39,493 nucleotides of DNA from Clostridiales bacterium. GTDB lineage: Bacteria > Bacillota > Sulfobacillia > Sulfobacillales > Sulfobacillaceae. The translations under genes were made by a program, and so were the position numbers. The notes beneath the pieces are model-generated. The model saw only the letters and a program-made list of their open reading frames with translations, did no database searches and was not told where the DNA came from. The number at the start of each line of letters is the position of its first letter. The stretch's first letter is position 1. Below, in pieces: positions 4,374-17,629 of the stretch. The DNA is taken from assembly GCA_027365485.1 (NCBI GenBank), contig DAHXNH010000154.1, forward strand, positions 1-39,493. Direction: 5' to 3'.

Positions 4374-5447
4374 ATGACACGATGGAGCCAAGAAGCAATT
4401 GTGAACGTCATCAAGGCAGTATACCAGGAAGAAGGATACTGCACCTCGTACAAATGGATGCGAGACCGACGCTCTCCCCATTTTTATACCATCATCCATT
4501 TCTTTGGCAGTTGGCATGCTGCCTGGGAAGCGGCGGGATTCGATGTGCCGCTACGCTTGGCCCCTAAAGACCGCGTGGTGACACGTGATCTGATTGTCGA
4601 GGCCTTACAGAAGGTCGGTCACTTCGAATCCGAGAGAGTGTGGAGTACCAACCATCGAATTCCCAGTGCACCGTCGATTCGGAAGATTTTTGGAACCTGG
4701 CAAGAAGCCTGGGAAGCCGCTGGCCTATGGTCAGAGCCGGTCTCTCCCAAAGAGAAGATTCTAGAACGTCTCGCTGAAGTCGGAAGTTACTGTAGCGAGA
4801 CCTATTGGGACCAAATGGGATTTAGACCGGTGGCTCAAACCATACGCAATCACTTCGGAACCTGGGGCAACGCTTGGCGTGCGGCAGGGATTACCCCGAC
4901 TCCGGCCAAAGTCCGTTGGTCCAAGGAGCAGATTATAGACAAACTGCGAGAACATGAGACCTATTGCACGGCTCGCGACTGGGACAGCTTGCGTTTAAAC
5001 CCAACCTCCCGAACCATTCGCAAGGTATTCGGCTCGTGGAAGGGCGCATGGACCGAAGCCGGGATTGCCAGCCCCATATCGCGGGCCACCGTCACTGAGG
5101 AAACCGTCATTTCGGCCTTTCGCGACTTTGGCGAATATGTCTCTGCTCAATACTGGGATGCCAGTGACCAAAAACCCTCTTCTCACACCATCCGCAAGCT
5201 ATTTGGTTCCTGGGCGGCCGCTTGGGCCGCGGCCGGCATCGAAGGCAGCCGCATCGGTTCGGTAGTAAATCCCAACGAAGCTCCGACTCAAGCCCTAAAT
5301 GAGCTTGACGCGAAACTCTGGGAAAAGCGTCAGCAAGGAGTCACCCTACAGCACTTGAGCCAAGAATTTGGCATGAGCACCTCGACGATTGCCCGCCGGA
5401 TTCTCCGGGCCAGAATTCCTCACGCCGATCAACGGTCTCATGGCTAG
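4374..5447 (+). CDS. Protein of five tandem homing-endonuclease-associated repeats plus a C-terminal HTH
   Basis: The 357-residue protein consists of five units of about 50-60 residues (approximately 4-55, 69-117, 124-172, 182-230 and 240-288). Each ends in F-G-(S/T)-W-x-x-A-W-x-x-A-G, the hallmark of the homing-endonuclease-associated repeat, a small DNA-contacting module. Residues about 308-345 then form a helix-turn-helix (GVTLQHLSQEFGMSTSTIAR). No HNH, LAGLIDADG or GIY-YIG nuclease motif is present, so this looks like a DNA-binding protein rather than an endonuclease. The start is supported by AAGGAG nine bases upstream. It is apparently monocistronic. Role unknown; sequence-specific binding to an extended site is my inference. 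Confidence 0.85.
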   Translation: MTRWSQEAIVNVIKAVYQEEGYCTSYKWMRDRRSPHFYTIIHFFGSWHAAWEAAGFDVPLRLAPKDRVVTRDLIVEALQKVGHFESERVWSTNHRIPSAPSIRKIFGTWQEAWEAAGLWSEPVSPKEKILERLAEVGSYCSETYWDQMGFRPVAQTIRNHFGTWGNAWRAAGITPTPAKVRWSKEQIIDKLREHETYCTARDWDSLRLNPTSRTIRKVFGSWKGAWTEAGIASPISRATVTEETVISAFRDFGEYVSAQYWDASDQKPSSHTIRKLFGSWAAAWAAAGIEGSRIGSVVNPNEAPTQALNELDAKLWEKRQQGVTLQHLSQEFGMSTSTIARRILRARIPHADQRSHG

Positions 5448-5601
5448 GCGAGCACCGCCGATCGCCATGATCTCGCCCCCCATCTTTCGTCGGTTACCGA
5501 TTCGATTCCACTTTGAAATGCCAAACGTGGAATCGAATCTTCTTCTGGTTGGATCCGAGGATTCGATCGAAACGCAGCAGGCGAAAAACGCGCCCTGGAC
5601 T

Positions 5602-6348
5602 CTAACGGATGAAGCCCAGGTGAAATGCCGCCACACTGACATACTCCTGCAAAGCTTCCGATACCATATCGACCCCCGATATTGATGGGATCCATCCCGT
5701 GGCTAGCCAAGACAGACGGACCGGCGTCTGGTAATCCGTCGGATAGGCGACGACATGGATGCCCTGAGCGCGAAAATCTTCCACCGCCTGCACCATATGA
5801 AAGGCTGAAGTGACTAAAATCGGTCGGACGAAGTGGTGCCGCCGCAAGATCACCGCGGAATTCGCCGCATTTTGATACGTGGTCTCGCTGTGATTGTCGA
5901 CTAAAACATCGCGAATGTGCAGCGAGAAGAGGGTACTTCGTCCGATATCCGATTCATTCCCGTCACTGAAGGAACCTTTTCCGCCGGAAATCACAATAGG
6001 CACATGCAAAATCCGTTCCAAACGAATCACCGTCAAAAACTCGTTGGCCATCGACCCAGACAACGATCCCATGCCGTGGTTAGAGGGGGTTTCAGCGACC
6101 GCGCCCTCTCCTAGGACTACGATAACATCCCCTGTTAGGTGTCGTGGCCGTTGATCGGCGTATTCAAGACCATGCACCATCCATTGTCCCAGCCACGGCG
6201 ACATCATCACCCAAATGATCAGCAGCAAAAAGATAGCCGTCAGGCGCCGATGGTATCTAGCGGCAACGGCCGATGCCGCGCCTAAGATCAAGAAGTCTCC
6301 TGGCGGCAGAGCAAAGTCCAGGAAGTCGCGCATAATATAAATCAGCAT
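5602..6348 (-). CDS. YdcF/DUF218-family envelope protein
   Basis: DUF218 proteins (YdcF, SanA, ElyC) have a Rossmann-like fold and are linked to envelope or polysaccharide metabolism, though their reaction is poorly defined. Visible features are an N-terminal membrane segment (AIFLLLIIWVMMSPWLG), then GDVIVVLGEG, RILHVPIVISGGKG, an acidic region with VLVDNHSETTYQNA, and PILVTSAFHMVQAVEDF, which are the conserved DUF218 blocks in order. The ATG at 6348 is preferred because AAAGGAAA lies eight bases upstream; a longer version from 6429 would add a Cys-rich N-terminus without a good site. It is divergent from the DUF1616/CPBP pair, suggesting a shared envelope role. Confidence 0.85.
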   Translation of the reverse strand: MLIYIMRDFLDFALPPGDFLILGAASAVAARYHRRLTAIFLLLIIWVMMSPWLGQWMVHGLEYADQRPRHLTGDVIVVLGEGAVAETPSNHGMGSLSGSMANEFLTVIRLERILHVPIVISGGKGSFSDGNESDIGRSTLFSLHIRDVLVDNHSETTYQNAANSAVILRRHHFVRPILVTSAFHMVQAVEDFRAQGIHVVAYPTDYQTPVRLSWLATGWIPSISGVDMVSEALQEYVSVAAFHLGFIR

Positions 6349-6440
6349 TCCAGAGTTTCCTTTCACGATTCGACGATAGGCGCATCTGACACGATGACGG
6401 TCACACCGTTGACACAAATTCGACCGCATCAGCTAAACTC

Positions 6441-6450
6441 ATGGTATAAT
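6441..6450 (+). promoter_or_regulatory. Extended -10 promoter for the DUF1616-CPBP pair
   Basis: TGGTATAAT contains a consensus TATAAT at 6445-6450 with the TGn extension, so a weak -35 is tolerable. A TTGACA at about 6409 lies 30 bases upstream and is too far away to be its -35. The predicted transcript start near 6457 leaves a leader of about 75 bases. Confidence 0.55.
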
Positions 6451-6531
6451 ATTTCGACAACCTTCGTTCGTGTGCAATGACTCAGTCCGTGCTCATCGTA
6501 CGTTATGTTATCCCAAGAAAGGAACCGATAT

Positions 6532-7398
6532 TTGGTGTCAATGCCCCCACGAGCCGCACGCCCTTTGAATTTTGAGAGGCACCATCGCGTCCATCCACTA
6601 AGTCTGCCGGTGGTCTACGATATCTGGATCGCGTTCCTCTGTTTGTTTAGTTTAGATGCCTACCTGTTGGTAATCCCGCACGGAACCAACGCGCTTCGTC
6701 TCGGCCTCGGCTTGGCGGTTGGTCTCTTTGTTCCCGGCTACCTCTCTACTTTAGCGTTGTTTCCGGAGCAGGAAACCCTCGATGGCATTGAGCGAACCGG
6801 CTTGAGCTTAGTCTTAAGTGTAGTCTGGATCCCGCTGCTGGCGCTCTTGCTAAGCCTCGGGCACATTCGGCTCAATGCGAATCATATCGCATGGGCGATT
6901 AGTGTCGTCTCTTTGGGCGTAGGCATTGGCGGGATTTGGCGGCGAAGCCTCCTTGCCGTAAAGACCCCCCCGCCGGTTTATCCGAACGGCAATGCTCGCT
7001 TTTATTTAGGAGGCTTGGTGTTGGCCTTAGGCATTCTTACCTGGGCCGTCGTCACCCCCAACCTCAAAGCGAAAAGTGTGGCCTTCTCGGTACTTGGAGC
7101 CCAAAACCAATTACAAGGATATCCGTACCAAATACGCTTTGGCCAAAAATATTTTCTTCACCTTCAAGTGTACAATCCTGGACTCAGCGCTCACCGTTTC
7201 CGAGTAGAAATGGTCGCCAACGGCGTGCCCACCCGTACCCTTTTGGCCAGCGTGGCCCCCGGACACACGTGGACCCACCCGATTAGCCTTCCAGCTAACG
7301 CTCCCGCCCGCGACGAGAACGCTCGCTTTTTGCTATGGAGCGGTGCCAGTCATCGGCCCTTGCGCAGCCTTTGGATTCGCTATAGGATCGTATCATGA
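6532..7398 (+). CDS. DUF1616-family membrane protein
   Basis: DUF1616 proteins have an N-terminal membrane bundle and an extracytoplasmic beta domain. Here hydrophobic segments precede the family-like block GLFVPGYLSTLALFPEQETL-DGIERTGLSL, more segments follow, and the last 110 residues form a beta-rich domain (KYFLHLQVYNPGLSAHRFRV). The start is a choice: an ATG at 6505 opens the frame, but AAAGGAAC lies inside it, so the TTG at 6532 or GTG at 6535 is favoured, with the ATG at 6541 also possible. The stop overlaps the next gene by four bases (ATGA), indicating translational coupling with the CPBP protease. Function unknown; an envelope polymer or protein-maturation role is inferred from its neighbours. 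Confidence 0.78.
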   Translation: MVSMPPRAARPLNFERHHRVHPLSLPVVYDIWIAFLCLFSLDAYLLVIPHGTNALRLGLGLAVGLFVPGYLSTLALFPEQETLDGIERTGLSLVLSVVWIPLLALLLSLGHIRLNANHIAWAISVVSLGVGIGGIWRRSLLAVKTPPPVYPNGNARFYLGGLVLALGILTWAVVTPNLKAKSVAFSVLGAQNQLQGYPYQIRFGQKYFLHLQVYNPGLSAHRFRVEMVANGVPTRTLLASVAPGHTWTHPISLPANAPARDENARFLLWSGASHRPLRSLWIRYRIVS

Positions 7399-8261
7399 TT
7401 TCATCAAAACGTGCGCTGACGAGGGCGCCCCACGCAAAAGAGATGGATCCTCGCCGCCAAGATCTCTGGGAGCGTTTAGAACCCTGGGCCTTTTTAGTGG
7501 TGCTCGGATTTAGTGAAATGCTTTCAGATATCTGGGCTCCGGCCACCGGCATCTTGCTTCATGCGCTGCTAGCCGTTTGGCTGTTGATTCGAGGCGGCCA
7601 ACAGTTAAGTACAACCCGGGGCAAATTTTACATTGCCATCAGTACCATGACCATGGTACGAATTATTAGTTTTGCCATCTCCCCGACAATCGCTCCCGGA
7701 ATTTGGTATTACACGTTTGCTGAGATTCCCTTAATGTTGTTCGCCATCATCGGCACCAAAAGTCTTGACCTACCGCTGTGGAAAACCTTGGGGGCAGTCT
7801 GGCCCAAGGGTTGGATAGGCTGGACCATTTTGGCTCTCGTGAGTGGACCGCTCATCGGTTGGGGTGAAGGGCATATTCTCCACCCGGCGACCCTCTCAGT
7901 CAATGGCAGCTTTTCTGCCATGATCCTTCCTGGACTGCTCTTAACCGCCTTTACAGGATTCAGCGAGGAGTGGCTGTTTCGCGGCCTGATTCAAACCACG
8001 GCCTCTAACTGGATGGGACCAGTGGCCGGGCTATTGTTCACCGCAGTGGGCTGGAGCCTGCTTCACATTGGCTGGAACTCTGGCGTTGATGTCGCCTACG
8101 TATTTTCTGTCGGAATCTTTTGGTGCTGGATTCGTCTTAAAACCCAATCGACCTGGGCGACTGGAATCGCCCACGGCACCGCCAACATCGTCTTGTTCTG
8201 TATCCTGCCCTGGCACAGCAATCTTTATCTCATTCCCACCCTATGGCATCTTCACGGTTGA
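7395..8261 (+). CDS. CPBP-family intramembrane metalloprotease
   Basis: CPBP (CAAX protease/bacteriocin-processing, Abi) proteins are membrane-embedded glutamate or metal proteases that process prenylated proteins or bacteriocins. The 288-residue protein has about eight hydrophobic segments and all expected motifs: E191-E192-x-x-x-R196 in FSEEWLFRG, H224 in SLLHIGWNS, and H260-x-x-x-N264 in GIAHGTANIV. It starts within the stop of the DUF1616 gene (four-base overlap), so the two are translated together. A strong terminator follows 30 bases after the stop. The substrate is not visible; the DUF1616 partner or a secreted peptide is possible. Confidence 0.9.
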   Translation: MISSKRALTRAPHAKEMDPRRQDLWERLEPWAFLVVLGFSEMLSDIWAPATGILLHALLAVWLLIRGGQQLSTTRGKFYIAISTMTMVRIISFAISPTIAPGIWYYTFAEIPLMLFAIIGTKSLDLPLWKTLGAVWPKGWIGWTILALVSGPLIGWGEGHILHPATLSVNGSFSAMILPGLLLTAFTGFSEEWLFRGLIQTTASNWMGPVAGLLFTAVGWSLLHIGWNSGVDVAYVFSVGIFWCWIRLKTQSTWATGIAHGTANIVLFCILPWHSNLYLIPTLWHLHG

Positions 8262-8290
8262 CCCTAGCCCGATTCCGCGTCACTGGCATT

Positions 8291-8325
8291 AAAAACTACT
8301 GGACATTATCATTCCAGTAGTTTTT
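8291..8325. terminator. Bidirectional rho-independent terminator
   Basis: AAAAACTACTGGA and TCCAGTAGTTTTT form a perfect 13-base stem around a nine-base loop. Flanking A- and T-runs let it act in both directions, fitting its place between the CPBP gene (rightward) and the small membrane-protein gene (leftward). Confidence 0.95.
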
Positions 8326-8376
8326 AACGCCCTACCAACATCATCCCTAAGTTAAGTTACAACATGGACAATAATG

Positions 8377-8631
8377 CTACAAAACCGCAGTAAAGTGTTG
8401 AACCAAAACAAACATGACCGATACGCCCAAAGGAACCGCGACCATGTTTAAAACCCGATGAAACCCAGCCCATCGCACATCACCCGCGTACTGAGTCACC
8501 TCTTTGGCAATGAGCGCCAAGATAAGCAACACAAGCGCAAATCCGCCTAGAAATGGGGCAAGGGACCCGGACACCTTGGTGGTGGTTACAGCAGTCGTTA
8601 CGACAGCCACCAACATAAACAACGCCTCCAT
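8377..8631 (-). CDS. Small membrane protein, 84 aa
   Basis: Three hydrophobic segments are visible: residues about 3-17, 24-42 and 61-80. The loop AKEVTQYAGDVRWAGFHRVL lies between the second and third. The ATG at 8631 is preceded by GAAGGAAAG at about seven bases, a good start signal. It converges on the terminator at 8291-8325. I do not recognise a family; it should sit in the cytoplasmic membrane. It appears to be transcribed alone. Confidence 0.7.
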   Translation of the reverse strand: MEALFMLVAVVTTAVTTTKVSGSLAPFLGGFALVLLILALIAKEVTQYAGDVRWAGFHRVLNMVAVPLGVSVMFVLVQHFTAVL

Positions 8632-8972
8632 TTCAACTTTCCTTCCCCTTCATGTTACACGGAAGTCAACTTCTTGACAAGTATTTCCTCGAAACATTCA
8701 GGGGGATTCCCCCTTACCCCGCCAAACCAGGGTCCCCCAGAGCGAATCGGTCCCGGCGTCGGCCGTGGGGCTTTTAAAGATTAAGCTCGCCGGTGACCCT
8801 AATGGATTCTGCCTTTCATCCGCTCTCAGATAGCGTGGTCGCGGCCAGAACAGTTCTGACTCTTATGTGTCTAAGAAGTCCCACCATCGTCGTGGGCTGC
8901 GCTTAGCGCATCCCTGACATCAGGACCGAAACACGCCGGCCAGGGCTCTAGGGCATAGCCTGGCCGAGATTG
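8632..8972. other. Intergenic region
   Basis: No gene is seen. It contains a short GGGGG-ATT-CCCCC hairpin at 8701-8713 and the stem-loop at 8938-8965 just downstream of the swivel-domain gene. A leftward promoter for the 84-residue membrane protein is expected here, but no strong match was found. Confidence 0.5.
8938..8965 (-). terminator. Probable terminator of the swivel-domain gene
   Basis: GGCCAGGGCT and AGCCTGGCC pair with one bulge around a nine-base loop, seven bases after the stop of the leftward gene. The following U-tract in the minus direction (GTGTTTC) is weak, so termination may be partial. Confidence 0.45.
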
Positions 8973-10565
8973 CTAAGCCAAAGCGGTCACCGTGCCTTGA
9001 TGGCCGTCAACCAGCACCAGCTCACCGTCACGAAACACTTGCGTCGCGGTTTTAGTACCTACCACGCACGGCACCCGGTATTCGCGCGCCACCGTGGCTG
9101 CATGGGATAAGATCCCGCCGGAATCCGTGACGACGGCCCGGGCAATAGCAAAAAGTGATGACCACACAGGCGTTGTCGCCCGAGCAATCAATACCTCGCC
9201 GGCCTGAAAGCGCGCAAAATCTTCGGGGCCAGAAATGACTCGCGCCGTACCTTGAACGCGACCCGCTGACGCTGAAACCCCTCGGATTTGGCGACGGTCC
9301 GAAGGCGTCATCTGCACCTGACTGTTGCCCGGCGCCTCAGGCGAAATTCCCAAGGATGGTGGTGGTGTTTCTCTTTGGTATTCCGCATAAGCGAGGCGCC
9401 GCTGGTCAAGGATCTGCGCCAGATCACTTTGTCGTATGCCATTTGACAGAGCTTCTAATTCGTCGGCATAAAGAAAAAAGATCTCATCGATCATGCCGAG
9501 CAGTCCCTGTCCGACTAACCAAGCGGCTAGTCGCAATAAAAATGGTCGCGCCCTGGCCGGAAGCATTGCGTCAATGTAAAAGTGGTGATCTTCGTCGATC
9601 GGGCGGGCATCATAAGCCGTGTGATAGGCTTCAAGAAATCGCTGACGATCGTCTGGGTCAGCGATAGCCGTGAGCGTGGCCTCTAATGCGGCTTTTTGTT
9701 TGGCCACTGTCTTTTCCCAATGGCGCTCAAAACGATAATCTTGTTCGATAAATTGGCGGATAATCGCCAAAACCGGTGTCAAGTCCTCCCGCCAAGATCT
9801 CTGGTAAAAATCGTGGGTGGTGCCCACCCGCCATCCATAGACCTCTTTAAAGGCATCAATTTCCCGCATAAACCCAAAAGCAGCCGGTTCTTCAAGCAAC
9901 GCAGCCCACGGTTTTTTTGCCATCAATGCTTGCCGAATCGGCTCTTGAGCCATAGCGGTTCGGGCCATCTCCGCCATCTGGCGGTCGGCCTCCAAAAATT
10001 TGTTTAGGTGACCCGATAACAGAGCATGCGCATCGGCCGGCGACCGGTCGGGAAACTGCTTTAAATAGATCGCTTCAAATACTTCTTGAACGGCAAACAC
10101 CGGCAGAACAACCCGCATATGAATCTCAAAAATCTCGTCGTACAAACGCGATAGATGCTGCAATCCTAAGATCGCCTGATCCACCGTCTCAATTTTTTCC
10201 GTGGCCTTTTCAAAGGCCTCATAGCGCGGCAGAATTTCTTCTCTAACGGTTCGCTGAAACGCCTCGCCTAGATGAGAACATTTTGGGTCGATGGTCGGGG
10301 TAACCTCAGTGCCTCCGTGATCGTAGGCTTGCGGCGGACTCAGCACAGAACGATAGTAATATCCATGATAAATGCGCACAGTCGACGGCGGTACCGGGAA
10401 CTTCAACGACGCGGCTGCTCGCCCCAGTCCTCGATCCAATGCGGGCACAATAAATGACTGAAATAGAGGCGTCATGACAAAGCCGAGATGGTCGGCGTCA
10501 TGGACCCAAAATCGTTCCAGAAGGTCTTTCTCGGACAAAGAGAGCGTCTCTTCTAAAGTACTCAT
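8973..10565 (-). CDS. PEP-utilising enzyme mobile (phosphohistidine swivel) domain protein
   Basis: The C-terminal 80 residues form the swivelling phosphohistidine domain of PEP synthase, pyruvate phosphate dikinase and rifampicin phosphotransferase, with the signature TDSGGILSHAATVARE; the phospho-accepting His is residue 488 from the start at 10565. The other 450 residues are mostly helical and resemble the central region of rifampicin-phosphotransferase-like proteins (FVMTPLFQSFIVPALDRG). There is no ATP-grasp domain and no PEP-binding barrel, so it must work with separate partners or transfer phosphate to an unknown acceptor. Start: ATG at 10565 with AGG nine bases upstream; an upstream in-frame TTG (10586) is the alternative. 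It lies downstream of the SNF2 gene block on the same strand. Confidence 0.82.
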   Translation of the reverse strand: MSTLEETLSLSEKDLLERFWVHDADHLGFVMTPLFQSFIVPALDRGLGRAAASLKFPVPPSTVRIYHGYYYRSVLSPPQAYDHGGTEVTPTIDPKCSHLGEAFQRTVREEILPRYEAFEKATEKIETVDQAILGLQHLSRLYDEIFEIHMRVVLPVFAVQEVFEAIYLKQFPDRSPADAHALLSGHLNKFLEADRQMAEMARTAMAQEPIRQALMAKKPWAALLEEPAAFGFMREIDAFKEVYGWRVGTTHDFYQRSWREDLTPVLAIIRQFIEQDYRFERHWEKTVAKQKAALEATLTAIADPDDRQRFLEAYHTAYDARPIDEDHHFYIDAMLPARARPFLLRLAAWLVGQGLLGMIDEIFFLYADELEALSNGIRQSDLAQILDQRRLAYAEYQRETPPPSLGISPEAPGNSQVQMTPSDRRQIRGVSASAGRVQGTARVISGPEDFARFQAGEVLIARATTPVWSSLFAIARAVVTDSGGILSHAATVAREYRVPCVVGTKTATQVFRDGELVLVDGHQGTVTALA

Positions 10566-10939
10566 AGGGATAACCTGCCTTCCCAAAATGGTGTCAACCG
10601 ATTCTACTTCCTTCGCTAAGCCCGAAGTCCCACCTTTGGATGGACCACGAGGTCAGCCAAGCAAGGAGTCTCGCCGAAACTCTCGATCGAGCCGAACGTT
10701 CCTCCCCACTCCTGCTGCCACCCGCGTACGCACCGTGACTTATCATCATCGGACGGACGGTCCTGTCGATCTTTACACCGTGGGCAGCGCGTCCTTCAAC
10801 GTCCCCAGCGCACTAATCATTGACCAGTCTTAGTGCTCGCTTTGACGGCGTGAACTGTTTTGAGCCCGGCGGAGTGCCTTCACCGCGGCACTAAATCCCT
10901 GAATCGATACCGATCTAGTGGTCCGGGTACCGGATGGGG
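10566..10939. other. Intergenic region
   Basis: No convincing gene. A small hairpin (AGTGCC...GGCACT, near 10874-10893) lies in the middle without a T-run. The plus-strand open frame reaching 10833 is antisense over the start of the swivel-domain gene and has no recognisable product. The gap weakens the case that the swivel-domain gene shares a transcript with the helicase genes. Confidence 0.5.
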
Positions 10940-11995
10940 TTAGACCTGACAGCAGTCCCCAACCCATCTGCCATCCCAACTCACTGTCACCGTCGGCAGC
11001 CCACATCTTTGGCAGGGAAAAGGATCCAGCCCCCGGGTGAGGAGATTGATCAAAACGCGCGCCGGCAACTGCTCTGCTTTTTGTTGCAGACGCAGCGAAA
11101 CCGCCACCCTGGGCACAACGAACATCCGCACGTGGTCGAGGGCGACTTGATGATCGACGTCATATGCCGCCCGCAGATCGGCCAATCGCCTATCCCGGTC
11201 AGCCAACACCGCCTGGCGTCGCTCCGCTAAAGCATCTTTTCGATCCAGAGGAGCTTTGGCAATCTTGTCATCCAGATCTTTCAGCGTACCACTGTAGTAC
11301 ACACTCATCCGTTGATACTCGGTATCGTATTTGCCTTGGTCCAACGCCACCAGGTCCTTCTCACGGTGCCGGGCCAAGCTCTCGATCTCGACTGAGGCCT
11401 TTTGCCACAAGGTCTGAAAGGCGACCGGTGGCAGTGAAGGCAACTTTTCCTCTTGCGGTCCAAGGTGATTGGCCCAAAAAAACCGAGCATAGGCTGCTTC
11501 GCCAGCCGCTAACGCGTTCCCATTTCCGTCGACCAATTTCACCAATGTCTCTTCGATTCGGCTCGAGGACTGCCAGGTTACTCGGAACCCAAACGAAAAA
11601 TCATAGCAAAGCACCGGACTCATGGCCTCAATCGCCGGTCTCCGGGTTTTCCGAAATTCGAGCGTCTCTTCCACCAGAGCCAGCGCACGCTCTGAGCTAA
11701 CCTCATAGTCATGTGGCTCCAGATGAGCATAAAAACGAAAGCCCCGCTGCCGTTCTAGAATATACGCAATCAAGTCGTCGACCAAAGGGTGCCCATAGGT
11801 CACCAGCAAAGCATCGGGCACCTCCCGTGCAGCTTCACTTTCGAAAGCTAGCGTGACTAAAGACGGAATATTTAACCGCTCGGCCAACGCTTGTGGCACC
11901 AATACTTCGGTCAATCCGTAGCCCTTAGGTTCCGCTATCCCGCCAGCTTGATGCAAGGCATCCAGAACAAATCGTTGCAGATCGGCTTTAGGCAT
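10940..11995 (-). CDS. Coiled-coil protein with a C-terminal Cys cluster, partner of the SNF2 ATPase
   Basis: The start (ATG at 11995) overlaps the stop of the SNF2 gene by eight bases, so the two are probably co-translated and may form one complex. The N-terminal half carries LLVTYGHPLVDDLIAYIL, similar to blocks in C-terminal regions of large SNF2 helicases of the HepA/DISARM DrmD kind (similarity judged by eye). A long charged coiled coil follows (about residues 200-300). The C-terminus has CQRCG and a final DCC, a likely zinc site. It looks like a helicase C-terminal module encoded separately. Function unknown; a specificity or DNA-contact subunit is inferred. Confidence 0.72.
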   Translation of the reverse strand: MPKADLQRFVLDALHQAGGIAEPKGYGLTEVLVPQALAERLNIPSLVTLAFESEAAREVPDALLVTYGHPLVDDLIAYILERQRGFRFYAHLEPHDYEVSSERALALVEETLEFRKTRRPAIEAMSPVLCYDFSFGFRVTWQSSSRIEETLVKLVDGNGNALAAGEAAYARFFWANHLGPQEEKLPSLPPVAFQTLWQKASVEIESLARHREKDLVALDQGKYDTEYQRMSVYYSGTLKDLDDKIAKAPLDRKDALAERRQAVLADRDRRLADLRAAYDVDHQVALDHVRMFVVPRVAVSLRLQQKAEQLPARVLINLLTRGLDPFPCQRCGLPTVTVSWDGRWVGDCCQV

Positions 11996-14066
11996 CGGCG
12001 GTCAACTCATCAAAGAGCTCTTGATCGGTCGCCTTAACCTTTTCGTAGGCCAATTTGGCATTACGATATTCTTCTCCCAAGTCCTCCATCCTGACGCGAA
12101 ACTCCTCATGCGATGCCGACTCTGTCAGTCGTTGCATAATCGCTTCTTCAAAGTCTTGCTCATTCGACCGCTTGCCCAAAATCATATCGAGTTCTCCTAC
12201 CACCAACTGAAACATATTGAGCTTGGCGTCCAGCACCCGCAAGACTTCAGCTTCTACCGTGTTTTCAGCCACCAAGTTGTAGATATGAACGTCTTTGGTC
12301 TGTCCGATCCGGTGGATCCGCCCAATTCGCTGTTCGATCCGCAGGGGGTTCCATGGCAGATCAAAGTTGACCATGTAATGGCAAAATTGAAGGTTGCGGC
12401 CTTCTCCCCCAGACTCGGTAGAAATTAGAATAGGAACGTCATCAGCAAACCGGGCTACGGCGGCATCTTTGGCGGCCCTCGACAACTGGCCATGAAATTC
12501 CACACACCCTATGCCCCGGGCTGCAAACTCAGCGACGATAAGTTCCTGGGTTCGTCGATATCCGGTAAAGATAACCATTTTTTCATCGCCTACACGGGCG
12601 ATGAAATCCAATAGTCGAGCGATCTTGCGATGGTCCGATATTTCCGCCGCAGTCCGAATTAATCCATTCAACTGCTGACGATCTGACTCCTCCCAGGATG
12701 AGTGCTCGGCTATCCGAATCAACGTGGGCACTACCGCCGCCACCGAGCTTCCCAATTCTTTTTGCAAGGTCTTTAGGCTCAGGCGATGGAACCCGGCAAC
12801 CGAAGGGTTCGTTGCCGTCTGGTAGCGATCGCGAACGAAGGCACTGACCTGCTGATAAAACTGCTGTTCCTCAACCGAGGGAACGATTTCTAAGGTATGT
12901 GCGGTGCGATGGGTGGCAATGACTCCGGTGGTGCTTCGCCGATTCCTAATCATCACTCCGCGTAGTAACCGGCGTAATTCATCCGGATTCTTTGGCTTCA
13001 AGGGATCTTTCGCCTCAATAAAGCGTCGTCGAAAGCCCTCTTTGGTGGCTAGATGGCCTGGAGACAAGAGGGTAATCAAGGTAAAAAGCTCGTCGAGTCG
13101 ATTTTCCACGGGAGTTGCCGTGAGCAACAAGATAAATTTCTTAGGCAGGCTGCTGACCAAACGATAAGCCAAAGTCTTATCGTTCTTCAGATGATGCGCC
13201 TCGTCCACGATTATTAAATCATAGGCACTGGCCTTCACCCGATCGGCCCATTCGCTTCGCTTCAGGGTGTCAATCGAAGCGATCAACCAAGGACATTCCG
13301 CAAACGGATCGGACGACTTTCGAAACACTTCGTCGTCGTGAGTGACAAAAGGCCAGTTAAACTTGCGCTGCAGCTCTTCGCGCCATTGCCCGACCAACGA
13401 AGAGGGGCACAAGATCAAAGCGCTTTTCACTAATCCGCGCAAGATATATTCCATCAACACCATCGCCGCTTCAATCGTTTTCCCCAACCCGACCTCGTCG
13501 GCCAGCAAAGCACGCCCACGCATATCCTGTAGGACGCGCCTCACCGTATTCAGTTGATAATCAAACAAGGTCACCTCACGGACCACCTCGGGGGCCAGCA
13601 AAACATCAAATCCGGGCCGGCTCTGAAGCTTTAAAGCCGCCTGGCGCAATTCGAACACGGATTCCGGCTCTTCCTTGGGCGCCACCACTTCGGCGAATAA
13701 CAATCGCACGTCGTCGTCCATGGCCCGTCCGTCATTGCCCCGTTCCGCGGCGGAGTACACAAACGTCGGGCGAAAACAAATTCGCAGGGGATCGCCCTCC
13801 ACCACGTCGACTAGGTATGAACGTTCGCGGTCCGTTCCCATCCAGCGGCTAGAACGAATCGTAAACGCCTGATTAAGGAAATCCGCCTGACCGGGTATTG
13901 GCGTATCTCGAAGTCCCTCCAGGCTGACCATTTTCCGGCCCTCGGCAGCATACGCTGCCATGAGTTCGGCCACCGCCGGATTCCAAGGAATCAGTCCAAG
14001 CTCTACCCACTCGCTTGAGATTTTCAGTTCAAATCCAGCACTTTCTTGAATAACAGCCGTAGCCAT
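11988..14066 (-). CDS. SNF2-family DNA-dependent ATPase (HepA/RapA-like)
   Basis: SNF2 ATPases move along double-stranded DNA and displace proteins; RapA recycles RNA polymerase, and others belong to phage-defence systems. Numbering from 14066 (692 aa): Walker A LADEVGLGKTIEAA near 190-203, DEAH in IIVDEAHHLKND near 285-296, motif III LLTATPVENRLDELF near 310, and motif VI RIEQRIGRIHRIGQTKDV near 575-592. The ATG at 14066 (MATAVIQ) has GGAGGG at nine bases; a longer start at 14117 lacks one. The C-terminal tail is short and the next gene overlaps, consistent with a split helicase. It lies downstream of a second SNF2 gene on the same strand. No methylase or nuclease gene is adjacent. Confidence 0.9.
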   Translation of the reverse strand: MATAVIQESAGFELKISSEWVELGLIPWNPAVAELMAAYAAEGRKMVSLEGLRDTPIPGQADFLNQAFTIRSSRWMGTDRERSYLVDVVEGDPLRICFRPTFVYSAAERGNDGRAMDDDVRLLFAEVVAPKEEPESVFELRQAALKLQSRPGFDVLLAPEVVREVTLFDYQLNTVRRVLQDMRGRALLADEVGLGKTIEAAMVLMEYILRGLVKSALILCPSSLVGQWREELQRKFNWPFVTHDDEVFRKSSDPFAECPWLIASIDTLKRSEWADRVKASAYDLIIVDEAHHLKNDKTLAYRLVSSLPKKFILLLTATPVENRLDELFTLITLLSPGHLATKEGFRRRFIEAKDPLKPKNPDELRRLLRGVMIRNRRSTTGVIATHRTAHTLEIVPSVEEQQFYQQVSAFVRDRYQTATNPSVAGFHRLSLKTLQKELGSSVAAVVPTLIRIAEHSSWEESDRQQLNGLIRTAAEISDHRKIARLLDFIARVGDEKMVIFTGYRRTQELIVAEFAARGIGCVEFHGQLSRAAKDAAVARFADDVPILISTESGGEGRNLQFCHYMVNFDLPWNPLRIEQRIGRIHRIGQTKDVHIYNLVAENTVEAEVLRVLDAKLNMFQLVVGELDMILGKRSNEQDFEEAIMQRLTESASHEEFRVRMEDLGEEYRNAKLAYEKVKATDQELFDELTADA

Positions 14067-14404
14067 CTCGGTTATCCCTCCATTCCGTCCACTGACATCT
14101 TTATCGATCGCTACCATTCTTTATGGCAGTCCTCGTTTCCTTCCGACGACGATCCAAATAATGCACCGCCATCGCCAAACCAGAACATCAGACCTCCGCA
14201 CGCTGACTCCATCACAGGCCCACTATGCCGCTCCTCAGTGGCAACGGTCAATCAACCGGTCCAAAGCCCCGTCCGCCCATTTGCATCCATTCTGGCTCGG
14301 AATCTCGAGAGTGCGCTCTTTACAGGGCCACCTCAGCTATCGTTCCTCTGGCAGCGGACACCACCCTGCCCCACCACTGACGGATTGGCGACCGAAAAGC
14401 CTCA
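14067..14404. other. Gap between the two SNF2 genes
   Basis: About 340 bases with no gene on the minus strand and no clear promoter or terminator. Plus-strand open frames here are low-complexity shadows rich in Pro, Ser and Arg. The two helicase genes may or may not share a transcript. Confidence 0.45.
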
Positions 14405-17400
14405 TTATAGGGTTAAGAGCTCGCGCACATCCTCTTCGCTGAGGGCACTTAAGGGATGGTCGTTGGCCTTTATCACCCGATCAATAAGATCTCGCTTCTT
14501 TTGCTGCAACTGATACATCTTTTCTTCGATCGTCCCTTTGGTAATCAGACGAATCACCTGCACCACGTTTTTTTGACCAATGCGGTGGGCCCGGTCGGCC
14601 GCTTGTTCTTCCACTGCCGGATTCCACCATAGATCGTACAGAATGACCGTATCCGCCCCGGTTAAATTTAACCCCGTTCCCCCTGCTTTTAAGGAAATCA
14701 AGAAGATGGGACGGCCTCCCTGGTTAAATTCTTCGGTCAACCCCAACCGTTCGTTCGGCGGTGTCTCGCCGTCCAAGTAGTAGTAAGGCCACTCGCGCTT
14801 TTCGAGTTCCCGGCGAATAATAGTCAGCATCGCCGTGAACTGAGAGAAGATCAGGAGCCGCTTTTGCGATGAGAGGGCTTCATCGACCACTTCTATCAAC
14901 AAATCCAATTTTCCAGATTCTCCACCATAGTTCTCGACAAACAGTTCAGGATGACAACAAATCTGGCGCAAACGAGTGATTCCCGCCAGAATCTTAAAGC
15001 GGCTGGCCTGAAAGCCGACCTGGTCCAGATCGCCCATCGTCTCATCGCGCAACTGGCTGAGATAACCCACATAAAGCTTTCGTTGGTCATCGGTTAATTC
15101 CGACGTCTCGACGGTCTCAATTTTGTCAGGCAACTCGCGCAGGACGTCCTTTTTCAGACGGCGAAGCACAAACGGTCTCGTCCTCCGGGCGACCATCTCT
15201 GGACTCATCCGAGCAAAGGCTTGTTTGTTGGGAAACAGCGCGGGAAAAACGGCGTGAAAGATGGACCATAGATCATCCAGGGAGTTCTCCACGGGAGTTC
15301 CGGTTAAGGCAAACCGACGAGGACTAACCAAATCGGCGACATGTTGCGCCGTTTTGGTTGCGTGGTTTTTAATCGACTGCGCCTCGTCTGCAATCAAGGC
15401 ATGAAATCGACGATCCCCATACCACTGGATATCGCGGCGAAGCAAGGGATAGGAGGTAATCAGTACATCGTACTGACTCGCTTCGGCAAAAATCTTCTCC
15501 CGCTCGTCGGGCGTTCCACTCACGACCGCGACCTTGAGATTCGGACCAAATTGCTGAAACTCCCGTTCCCAGTTGTACATTAAAGAGGCTGGACATACGA
15601 TTAATGCAGGGTCTTCGAAAGGACCGGTCTCTCGTTCCGAGAGCAAGAAGGCGATGCTTTGAATCGTTTTCCCTAGCCCCATGTCGTCAGCCAAAATGCC
15701 ACCCAAGCCGTACTGAGACAATGTCTTCATCCACTGAAATCCCATGCGTTGGTAGTCGCGCAGAATCGTTCGGACCGCCAACGGCACAGCTACTTCCAAA
15801 TTATCAGGGTGTTTTAGATTGTCGATCCACTGACGAAGGCTGCGTCCCAACTTAACGTTGGATGCAGCCCCACCGCGATCGATCAGAGCCAGCGCTCGGG
15901 TCGCTGGCAAGCGCAACGCCCCTTCCCCTAACTCACGTCGATTCAAATCGAGGTCGCCAACCAATTCCGCCAAATTCTGAAAGCTCTCATCCTCGAGCGA
16001 TACGAAGGCTCCATCGGCTAAACGATGATACCTGCGCTTTTCCACCAACGACGCTAATAGGTCCTGAATCTCTCGAGGATCCAAATCCCCTATTTCAAAC
16101 GAAATCTCCATCCAATCTAAGGTGGAATCCATATCGACATGGGCCTTAGGGGCCACGGCACGTCCCCGCAAGACCGGTTGTAAGGCGTCGGTCACATAGA
16201 CCTCAATCGATTCCTCCAGGACAGAAAGCACCTCGTACACAAATCGAAAGACCTGGTCTTCGTCTTTAAGCGCCAAGATTCCCGAGTCAGACTGAAACCC
16301 GGCTTGCTCCAAGATAGCCAATAATGCGTTCTCTTCCCCACTCTTGCGAGCCACCAGGGGGCCATTTGAGGCCTTCATCTCCGCTAAAGCATCGATCACC
16401 ACCGCGCCGTAGCGAAACTCAAGCCGAGCCTCTAATGCCTCTTGGCGCCAATCCAAATACAAATGCGCCTTCAATGGGGCTTCCACAATCCGTTCTTGCA
16501 ACTTCGACGCTACCTGAACTTCGCCGATGGCCCGGACCGCTGGCAATACTTGCTCAATGAACTTTTCAAGATCGGCCGAAGCGACCCGTAGCGCGACCTC
16601 CTTTGAGGATTTGTCTAGCGCTTGTATCGCCTCTAAGCCCCGGCCAATGCCGGGAGGGAGATGATAAAGCACGCCATGGCCATAGGCCAAATCGTACTTC
16701 GCCAAGATCTGTAGGCTGGCCAAACCATCGACCGAAAATGTGTACACATCGTCTCCACTCATTAACAATCTCGAGCGGATCGGCAGCGGAGGCTCCGCTA
16801 ACACCGTTGGGATTTGATTAAACATCAATGGAGCTTTAGCCAACCACGGCCAAATGCGTTTGAACGCCCACGGTGAGAGATCTATGTAGCGTTGATACTC
16901 GCCCGGGGGTCCCATGTGACTGTAGTATCTGGCCTGGGTGGTCTGCATGAGTTGAGTTTCTTGGAGCGCCTTTAAGATGTTCCAATCATTCTGGTTAAAC
17001 GTGTGCAGCCGGGAGTCATAGGTGAAACTTTTAGCCACCCACATTGGCGGCCCATCCAAGTGTTCTCGCAAAAATTGGCCGAAATCTTTCACAATATAAG
17101 ATCGTTTGGGCCCAATGCTGATGCCTGCCACCAGGAGCGTCTCTCGGTCATAATAGTCCTTACGCAAAAATAAGTTGAATTGAACGTGAAGCATTGTACG
17201 CTCGGACGACACCCTTAACCCGGATGACTGCTCCAAGATAGCCGGCTCAAACTGTGATAAAAGGTGTCTGACTCGGTTTTTTTCGACGGTAGTGATCTCC
17301 CCTAAAGGCTCGCTAGCCCCTTGGGGTTTGGCGGGGTGGCGACGGTCCCTAATCGCCAACCAAATCGCTACCATATGCGGGCACCATCCCCGCGCGTTAT

Positions 17401-17629
17401 CTCGGTGGCAACTGCAATCTCCATCGATGTCGTTGTCGTCTTCCATCATAAACGCATAACAATTCTCGTCTCCGTCGACCACGACGGCCGACCAGTCCCA
17501 CTCTTCATCCCCCCTGGTTCTCGTCAACGAGCTTACCTTTTGTTCACGCCATAACTTTTCCCCTGCCAGGTATATTTCATGCCCGGATAACGCTTCCACC
17601 CGACGTAGCTCCACGGGACTCTGAGCCAT
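14405..17629 (-). CDS. SWIM zinc-finger SNF2 helicase, 1074 aa
   Basis: A SWIM finger lies near the N-terminus: C72-S-C74 ... C83-P-H85 in GDCSCHRDNARGWCPHM. A long middle region, probably the SNF2-associated bacterial domain, precedes the ATPase core: Walker A GILADDMGLGKTIQS near 642-656, DEAQ in LIADEAQSIKNH near 746, ALTGTPVENSLDDLW near 770, and motif VI QAADRAHRIGQKNVVQV near 1008-1024. It ends in an acidic tail (LSEEDVRELLTL). Length and order match Firmicute SWIM-SNF2 proteins such as those near ywqA. The start has AGAGGGTG at about eight bases. The protein should bind nucleic acid and use ATP to remodel protein-DNA contacts. The next leftward gene encodes a second SNF2 ATPase, an unusual pairing. 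Confidence 0.93.
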   Translation of the reverse strand: MAQSPVELRRVEALSGHEIYLAGEKLWREQKVSSLTRTRGDEEWDWSAVVVDGDENCYAFMMEDDNDIDGDCSCHRDNARGWCPHMVAIWLAIRDRRHPAKPQGASEPLGEITTVEKNRVRHLLSQFEPAILEQSSGLRVSSERTMLHVQFNLFLRKDYYDRETLLVAGISIGPKRSYIVKDFGQFLREHLDGPPMWVAKSFTYDSRLHTFNQNDWNILKALQETQLMQTTQARYYSHMGPPGEYQRYIDLSPWAFKRIWPWLAKAPLMFNQIPTVLAEPPLPIRSRLLMSGDDVYTFSVDGLASLQILAKYDLAYGHGVLYHLPPGIGRGLEAIQALDKSSKEVALRVASADLEKFIEQVLPAVRAIGEVQVASKLQERIVEAPLKAHLYLDWRQEALEARLEFRYGAVVIDALAEMKASNGPLVARKSGEENALLAILEQAGFQSDSGILALKDEDQVFRFVYEVLSVLEESIEVYVTDALQPVLRGRAVAPKAHVDMDSTLDWMEISFEIGDLDPREIQDLLASLVEKRRYHRLADGAFVSLEDESFQNLAELVGDLDLNRRELGEGALRLPATRALALIDRGGAASNVKLGRSLRQWIDNLKHPDNLEVAVPLAVRTILRDYQRMGFQWMKTLSQYGLGGILADDMGLGKTIQSIAFLLSERETGPFEDPALIVCPASLMYNWEREFQQFGPNLKVAVVSGTPDEREKIFAEASQYDVLITSYPLLRRDIQWYGDRRFHALIADEAQSIKNHATKTAQHVADLVSPRRFALTGTPVENSLDDLWSIFHAVFPALFPNKQAFARMSPEMVARRTRPFVLRRLKKDVLRELPDKIETVETSELTDDQRKLYVGYLSQLRDETMGDLDQVGFQASRFKILAGITRLRQICCHPELFVENYGGESGKLDLLIEVVDEALSSQKRLLIFSQFTAMLTIIRRELEKREWPYYYLDGETPPNERLGLTEEFNQGGRPIFLISLKAGGTGLNLTGADTVILYDLWWNPAVEEQAADRAHRIGQKNVVQVIRLITKGTIEEKMYQLQQKKRDLIDRVIKANDHPLSALSEEDVRELLTL

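Follow-up and report, generated by a model that had tools for sequence, protein, structure and literature searches.

A run of four leftward genes in a Clostridiales bacterium (Sulfobacillaceae; GenBank assembly GCA_027365485.1, contig DAHXNH010000154.1) raises the question of which of them belong together and what they might do. The window, that is, the whole stretch of 39,493 nucleotides analyzed here, is one entire contig of a draft genome (4.93 Mb, 440 contigs). Two of the genes encode SNF2 ATPases, one a small protein with a cysteine cluster, and one a phosphohistidine swivel protein. Our analysis centered on the two middle genes, encoding an SNF2 ATPase of 709 amino acids (aa), called the motor below, and a 351-aa protein, called its partner. 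With a confidence that falls a little short of even, we propose that this pair is a RapA-type remodeller with a separate C-terminal subunit, probably acting on stalled RNA polymerase (RNAP), an action that we infer.

The 351-aa partner and its relatives

A preliminary description of the locus had taken the 351-aa protein for a detached C-terminal helicase module with a cysteine cluster, and this was supported by matches of its predicted structure to the C-terminal region of RapA. An AlphaFold2 (AF2) model built with nine sequences had a mean pLDDT (predicted local distance difference test) of 88.1 and consisted of an alpha/beta domain, a long helical hairpin (residues 193–277), a beta sheet, and the C-terminal cysteine cluster. 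A Foldseek search of the PDB with this model returned RapA as all of the top three matches (E 2e-9 to 1e-8), the next match having an E of 0.11. VIA-align placed residues 1–297 of the model onto RapA 709–968 with a Z of 10.2 (233 residues aligned, 19% identity); four of its five RapA rows lay at Z 9.0–10.2 and one at 7.1. From the model, the protein is predicted to share the fold of the C-terminal ~260 residues of Escherichia coli RapA (about 709–968). RapA was also the best PDB sequence match of the profile made from the nine-sequence family (E 0.02), and a profile of a larger set of partners aligned to E. coli RapA 714–792 with an E of 1.3e-4 and a probability of 53.5, ten shuffles giving E 0.28–0.84. 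The sequence data agree with the structural match weakly, yet in register. The cysteine cluster comprises C328, C331, C348, and C349, of which the first three are invariant across the nine-row alignment, and it is probably a zinc ribbon. Of the 24 partner proteins compared, 20 had a CxxC motif; three YqhG-type rows and a cyanobacterial plasmid form lacked it.

The partner was also compared with YqhG, the family PF11079. Aligned by hhalign, the 351-aa family and YqhG matched with a probability of 99.2 and an E of 1e-19 over 249 columns, and with the three YqhG rows alone the E was 7e-8. The corresponding decoys gave an E of 0.1 for the reversed profile, 0.28–0.96 for eight column shuffles, and 0.038, 0.22, and 0.4 for three unrelated proteins of the window. 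The window protein itself reached no Pfam family and scored below the PF11079 cut-off; a related partner (L095) reached PF11079 at E 2e-11. The PF11079 model matched 15 of 149 genomes of the phylum, and in three of the genomes (G072, G092, and G124) a single open reading frame (ORF) was matched by both PF11079 and the window-family profile. The YqhG-type genes that were fetched were located downstream of an SNF2 gene. By these profile comparisons, the 351-aa protein is a distant homologue of Bacillus YqhG. One locus (L096) held two convergent motor–partner pairs, with one partner YqhG-like and the other nearer to the window family. In PMC3487849, yqhG is termed a gene of unknown function, and in PMC6123443, yqhG and yqhH appear merely as parts of deletions.

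The motor and the occurrence of the pair

The Walker A, DEAH, and motif VI sequences of the motor are all intact (GLGKT at 210, DEAH at 305, and QRIGRIHR at 596), and the protein terminates shortly past the second ATPase lobe and a long helix. Its start is possibly codon 18, where the homologue in a genome of the same genus (G001) starts. The NCBIfam scores of the motor were 268 bits for DrmD, 244 for RapA, and 234 for DpdE, all under the cut-offs, with 244 of 576 bits on the RapA model PRK04914 and 268 of 610 and 237 of 950 bits on the DrmD equivalogs. The AF2 model of the motor was poor, with residues 1–177 below a pLDDT of 50. In a tree of the motors, the paired motors of both types, the window type and the YqhG type, grouped together, separate from the SWIM-SNF2 set (100*). 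The wider paired-motor set also contained RapA and fused HmaA-like proteins, on long, unsure branches; the tree was made by a quick method that left several deep forks open, and the RapA branch is very long (5.3), which makes the position of RapA unsure. Excluded from the tree were L024 (98%, the same as the window gene), L028 (broken), L032 and L033 (remnants), L089 (1515 aa), and ORFs below 100 bits. L028 (G026, 10613–12788, minus strand) has its motor in two frames (573 + 266 aa) upstream of an intact partner, through either a pseudogene or a sequencing error. L089 (10608–15155, minus strand) has, beside a normal partner gene, a motor ORF of 1515 aa in which Helicase_C occurs twice. A lone 532-aa RapA-like SNF2 gene (L042, G000:C240, 1421–3019, minus strand) had no recognized partner in the 9 kb covered; its surroundings, named by eye, we take to be lysA and scpA/scpB.

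Of 46 partner genes, 45 were situated directly downstream, on the same strand, of a RapA-like SNF2 gene; because the 41 genomic genes among them (the window's included) were chosen for the partner and only the five plasmid genes were found via the motor, this count shows that a partner is preceded by a motor and does not show that each motor comes with a partner. The exception (L094) begins right at the edge of its contig; what is probably its other half (L125) stands behind an SNF2 gene of that genome. Not counted among the 46 is a fused HmaA/DrmD-like protein (L098), in which motor and partner signals occur in one 1126-aa ORF. The eight-base overlap reported in the preliminary description was confirmed, with the ATG of the 351-aa gene inside the last SNF2 codons. 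With gene distance taken to the nearest upstream Met, this overlap was seen in 12 of the 41 pairs for which the distance could be computed, in four family groups, some of the 12 pairs being closely related (L082–L084; L032/L033), which suggests coupled translation of the two genes.

Homologues of the 351-aa protein were found in 11 of 61 relatives, its own genome included, and the nine-sequence profile detected the partner in 26 of the 299 phylum genomes; the loci examined cover all of these 26 genomes but G208 and all of the 15 genomes matched by the YqhG model but G076, G122, G161, and G195. Pairs occurred in Bacillota and also on plasmids of cyanobacteria, alphaproteobacteria, and haloarchaea. 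The plasmid search, led by the motor, yielded pairs in Oscillatoria, Nostoc, and Calothrix (569-aa motor, 346-aa partner), and also in Rhodovastum and Halorhabdus; all these plasmid partners matched the partner profile, at E 3e-36 to 2e-10. In Halosegnis the motor was related and its partner (L112) just weakly related, and Thermus pVV8 had one large protein in place of the pair. Seven plasmid loci were examined out of 40 listed motor matches (1087 records matched). A direct search with the window partner found no copy in plasmids, phages, or viral contigs, and a plasmid search with a YqhG gave no match. No third gene recurred beside the pair except ABC ATPases and small groups of near-copies; the ABC transporter ATPases, recurring in nine loci, probably reflect the ubiquity of that family. 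Pfam searches of ten long partners and motors revealed no additional domain.

A few loci departed from the usual arrangement. In L032 (G030) and L033 (G025), an intact partner stands behind a 62-aa SNF2 C-terminal remnant (the last ~60 codons), and genes that by eye resemble an IS605-type element occupy the expected SNF2 position. In L031 (G057, 4712–9456, minus strand), the partner is extended by ~270 aa that have no Pfam match, and after it comes a different SNF2 helicase, matched best in NCBIfam by SCO1167/SCO6262 (567 of 1200 bits).

Candidate functions of the pair and the place of its neighbors

In the mechanism that we propose, the motor and partner genes would encode one two-subunit RapA-type translocase of nucleic acids, divided after the second ATPase lobe so that the C-terminal module is a protein of its own. 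The two proteins may assemble after coupled translation, with the small subunit docking on the motor as it would within RapA. The complex would then spend ATP in moving on duplex DNA and would dislodge or reset stalled or post-termination RNAP, and the added cysteine cluster may provide an extra contact with the polymerase or nucleic acid. A new RNAP-recycling or defense module had been suggested for this locus from the start, and RNAP recycling was a good guess because the module has the predicted RapA C-terminal fold; the defense part fared less well, as no PADLOC family matched more than three of the 80 neighbor proteins scanned, yet it persists as a weaker rival. Recycling of RNAP by RapA is described in PMC8666675, and an interaction of Bacillus subtilis HepA/YqhH and YwqA with RNAP is stated in PMC7385302. 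HelD was over its family cut-off in three of the 61 relatives and was not found in the genome of the window; complementarity of HelD and the pair was not shown across the 61 genomes, since the relatives without the pair mostly lacked HelD too.

Several observations weigh against a RapA-type remodeller. The margin of the RapA fold match in VIA-align is small, as unrelated long-helix matches reached Z 9.2 (over ~60 residues only) beside 7.1–10.2 for RapA, and VIA-align warns that such Z values may reflect a mere common arrangement; the weight of the match therefore rests on Foldseek and on coverage. The Foldseek rmsd (root-mean-square deviation) was itself large, 12–15 Å, so that only the succession of domains is well matched. 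The Pfam model RapA_C (PF12137) had no match above its cut-off in the genome, its best E being 0.021, in two of the nine family members. The small-subunit profile also weakly matched the fused protein L098 (24 bits), and the fold is thus not specific to RNAP recyclers. As for the motor, its best NCBIfam score was that of DrmD, above RapA, and the autoinhibitory N-terminal domain of RapA was not found because the N-terminal 177 residues are so poorly modeled. Finally, the patchy occurrence of the partner does not look like that of a core transcription factor.

Alternatively, the pair may be a DNA-repair or replication-conflict remodeller that works other than by RNAP recycling, for example by clearing proteins off damaged DNA. 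PMC7385302 examined B. subtilis hepA/yqhH and ywqA under replication–transcription conflict, but the deletion of hepA cut viability on PcrA depletion ~3-fold, a change reported as not significant. A screen for extracellular DNA that yielded yqhG insertions also yielded mfd and topA, as stated in PMC3487849. Among the neighbors of the pair, one gene is by eye RecQ-like and one protein matched ADDB_N, but no repair gene recurred among the 25 of 109 neighbor families listed. We consider this explanation fairly unlikely.

A minimal or orphan anti-phage or anti-plasmid device, with a motor of the HmaA/DrmD/BrxH type and a separate C-terminal module acting on invading DNA, is in our estimation unlikely and a weaker rival than RNAP remodelling. 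RapA-like motors can serve defense, since a BrxHII/RapA-like helicase is named in DISARM-related defense systems in PMC12458937, and the PADLOC models BrxHI, DrmD, and HmaA scored 209–246 bits on the motor. The patchy occurrence described above would fit such a device, as would the related pairs on mobilizable cyanobacterial plasmids, near toxin–antitoxin or Abi-type genes, and the related Halosegnis motor, which adjoins a DUF499/DUF1156-methylase set, though with its weakly related partner. In a further locus (L079), a helicase gene (7174–8952, minus strand) lying ~470 bp upstream of the motor matched PADLOC DpdF at E 5e-202; by eye it is RecQ-like, and the DpdF model may catch ordinary RecQ. 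Against these points, a PADLOC scan (E 1e-10) of 80 of 174 neighbor ORFs, the nearer ones being hand-picked from 25 loci and scanned without a background set, revealed no family with more than three members among the 25 of 31 families listed: mads_3 had three, sigma-54 activators two (L082/L083), and the others one. It also speaks against such a device that no third gene other than the ABC ATPases recurred and that searches of phages and viral contigs, and a direct search of plasmids, found no copy; the genes nearest to the pair in the window, an SDR, ABC transporter, MMPL, and protease set, are not of a defense type. The preliminary description had noted that no methylase, nuclease, or PLD gene is present, and indeed ten window neighbors (1.7–25.2 kb), searched with Pfam or NCBIfam but not PADLOC, included no methylase, PLD, or other defense-system genes.

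The four genes do all lie on the minus strand where they were first described, with positions and strand confirmed by an ORF check (Table 1). In the order of transcription, the SWIM-SNF2 gene is followed by a gap of 287 bp, the motor and partner genes, a gap of 353 bp, and the swivel gene; the two gaps do not look like those of a tight operon, and a scan for promoters and terminators gave no signal above chance level. The adjacency of two SNF2 genes, which had been called unusual, was confirmed but is less striking here because the genome contains about 10 SNF2 genes (11 matches, two of them within one ORF).

Table 1. Positions of the four genes and of the overlap in the window.
Feature	Position	Strand	Remarks
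SWIM-SNF2 neighbor with SNF2_assoc domain, 1074 aa	14405–17629	minus	probably outside the module; the genome also carries two close paralogues
Motor subunit, RapA-like SNF2 ATPase, 709 aa	11988–14117	minus	Pfam SNF2-rel_dom, Helicase_C
Detached RapA-C-like subunit (predicted), 351 aa	10940–11995	minus	AF2 model; Foldseek and VIA-align to RapA; hhalign to YqhG
8-base stop/start overlap of motor and 351-aa genes	11988–11995	minus	recurs in distant pairs
PEP-utiliser swivel protein without kinase, 537 aa, TTG start	8973–10586	minus	outside the module; two full-length paralogues in the genome

A SWIM signature (CxC...CxH) was seen by eye in the first of the four proteins, in which the Pfam SWIM model did not reach an E of 1; in its paralogues the model gave an E of 7e-7 (L037) and 0.027, below the cut-off (L036). 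The protein, whose gene is separate from the pair, aligned nearly full-length with NF053675, a pilus-regulating Snf2, at 678 bits (cut-off 1100), and we take it to resemble B. subtilis YwqA/YwqB. Close SWIM-SNF2 proteins (E ≤ 1e-100) were found in 13 of the 61 genomes, its own included, and seven of these lacked the pair; conversely, five of the 11 pair-bearing genomes lacked one at this threshold. The six genomes with both gave a one-sided Fisher p of 0.008, uncorrected for relatedness. The SWIM-SNF2 gene holds its place beside the pair in G001 (94% identity), but on the contigs examined the two adjoin only within the genus (two genomes), and elsewhere they lie on different contigs (G004, G010, G013, and G026), the short contigs of G004 and G010 leaving proximity possible there. 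A second, different SNF2 gene next to the pair is also found in G057.

The swivel protein has PF00391 with its His motif and no kinase domain among the Pfam matches, in agreement with its initial reading as a swivel domain without its kinase. Its gene (E ≤ 1e-60) was detected in 13 of the 61 genomes, its own included, and, on the contigs examined, beside the pair only in this one; even in G001, the copy (90% identical, broken over two frames) is on a different contig from the pair. Co-occurrence of the swivel gene and the pair gave a p of 0.43 across the 61 genomes. In another contig (L035, G000:C186, minus strand), a swivel paralogue (5544–7166) overlaps by four bases a separate PPDK_N kinase gene (7163–8053, E 1.6e-71); this split kinase/swivel pair adjoins an MFS transporter, while the window copy has no adjacent kinase.

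Despite the shared strand, a functional block of all four genes, as initially supposed, is very improbable and was rejected on linkage, being largely refuted for the swivel gene and weak for SWIM-SNF2, as the co-occurrence and neighborhood comparisons showed that only the middle two genes travel together. The SWIM-SNF2 gene is probably an independent neighbor of the pair, and the swivel gene is one, outside the module. Elsewhere in the window, a plus-strand gene (4374–5447) encodes a protein that has homing-endonuclease-associated repeats, five in number (PF18780, E 9e-26), and toward its C-terminus weak helix-turn-helix matches.

The pair among RapA-type systems

E. coli RapA (HepA) has in common with the window pair an SNF2 motor and, by prediction, the C-terminal fold. 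RapA is one polypeptide, whereas the window pair is encoded by two genes and differs further in its extra C-terminal cysteine cluster, in scoring below the RapA_C cut-off, and in having no recognized N-terminal domain; in RapA, the RNAP-contacting N-terminal domain spans residues 1–109, and the first 177 residues of the window motor had a pLDDT under 50. RapA binds RNAP, which stimulates its ATPase, and the window pair may do likewise. The YqhH (HepA)–YqhG type shares with the window the order of an SNF2 gene followed by its partner in the fetched loci, an order that presumably also holds for yqhH and yqhG in B. subtilis. Its partners are homologous to the window partner by profile comparison, and its motors stand in the same part of the tree but in a different subclade; the three YqhG-type rows have no CxxC cluster, and the window partner lies below the PF11079 cut-off. 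DrmD (DISARM), HmaA (Hma), BrxHI/BrxHII, and DpdE belong to multi-gene defense systems. They have a RapA-like motor core in common with the window motor, but their models describe single proteins of 600–1300 aa with cut-offs far above its scores, and no such partner genes as theirs are found here. The fused L098 carries a weak trace of the small-subunit motif.

RapA, YqhH, and YqhG were already known, and the recognition that YqhG-type and cysteine-cluster-type proteins may be detached RapA C-terminal modules, as suggested by sequence profiles and the model, appears to be new; no paper equating YqhG with the RapA C-terminus was found in the open-licence literature. It is possible, though doubtful enough that we offer it as a suggestion, that a widespread and hitherto unrecognized class of RapA consists of a motor and a YqhG-type adaptor as exchangeable subunits, the adaptor docking the motor on RNAP. 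On this view, YqhG would supply the half that the Bacillus RapA lacks, and the cysteine-cluster form would be a lineage-specific adaptor redirecting the motor to another face of the polymerase or to other cargo. This gives YqhG a testable role and might account for the way in which the Firmicute RapA-like motors examined stop just past the ATPase core. Should the pair act on something other than RNAP, it would still be a conserved SNF2 machine of two subunits that is sometimes carried on plasmids. If the suggestion is true, tests of yqhH alone removed just half of the machine, and RNAP recycling in many Bacillota may need a two-protein RapA, beside or instead of HelD.

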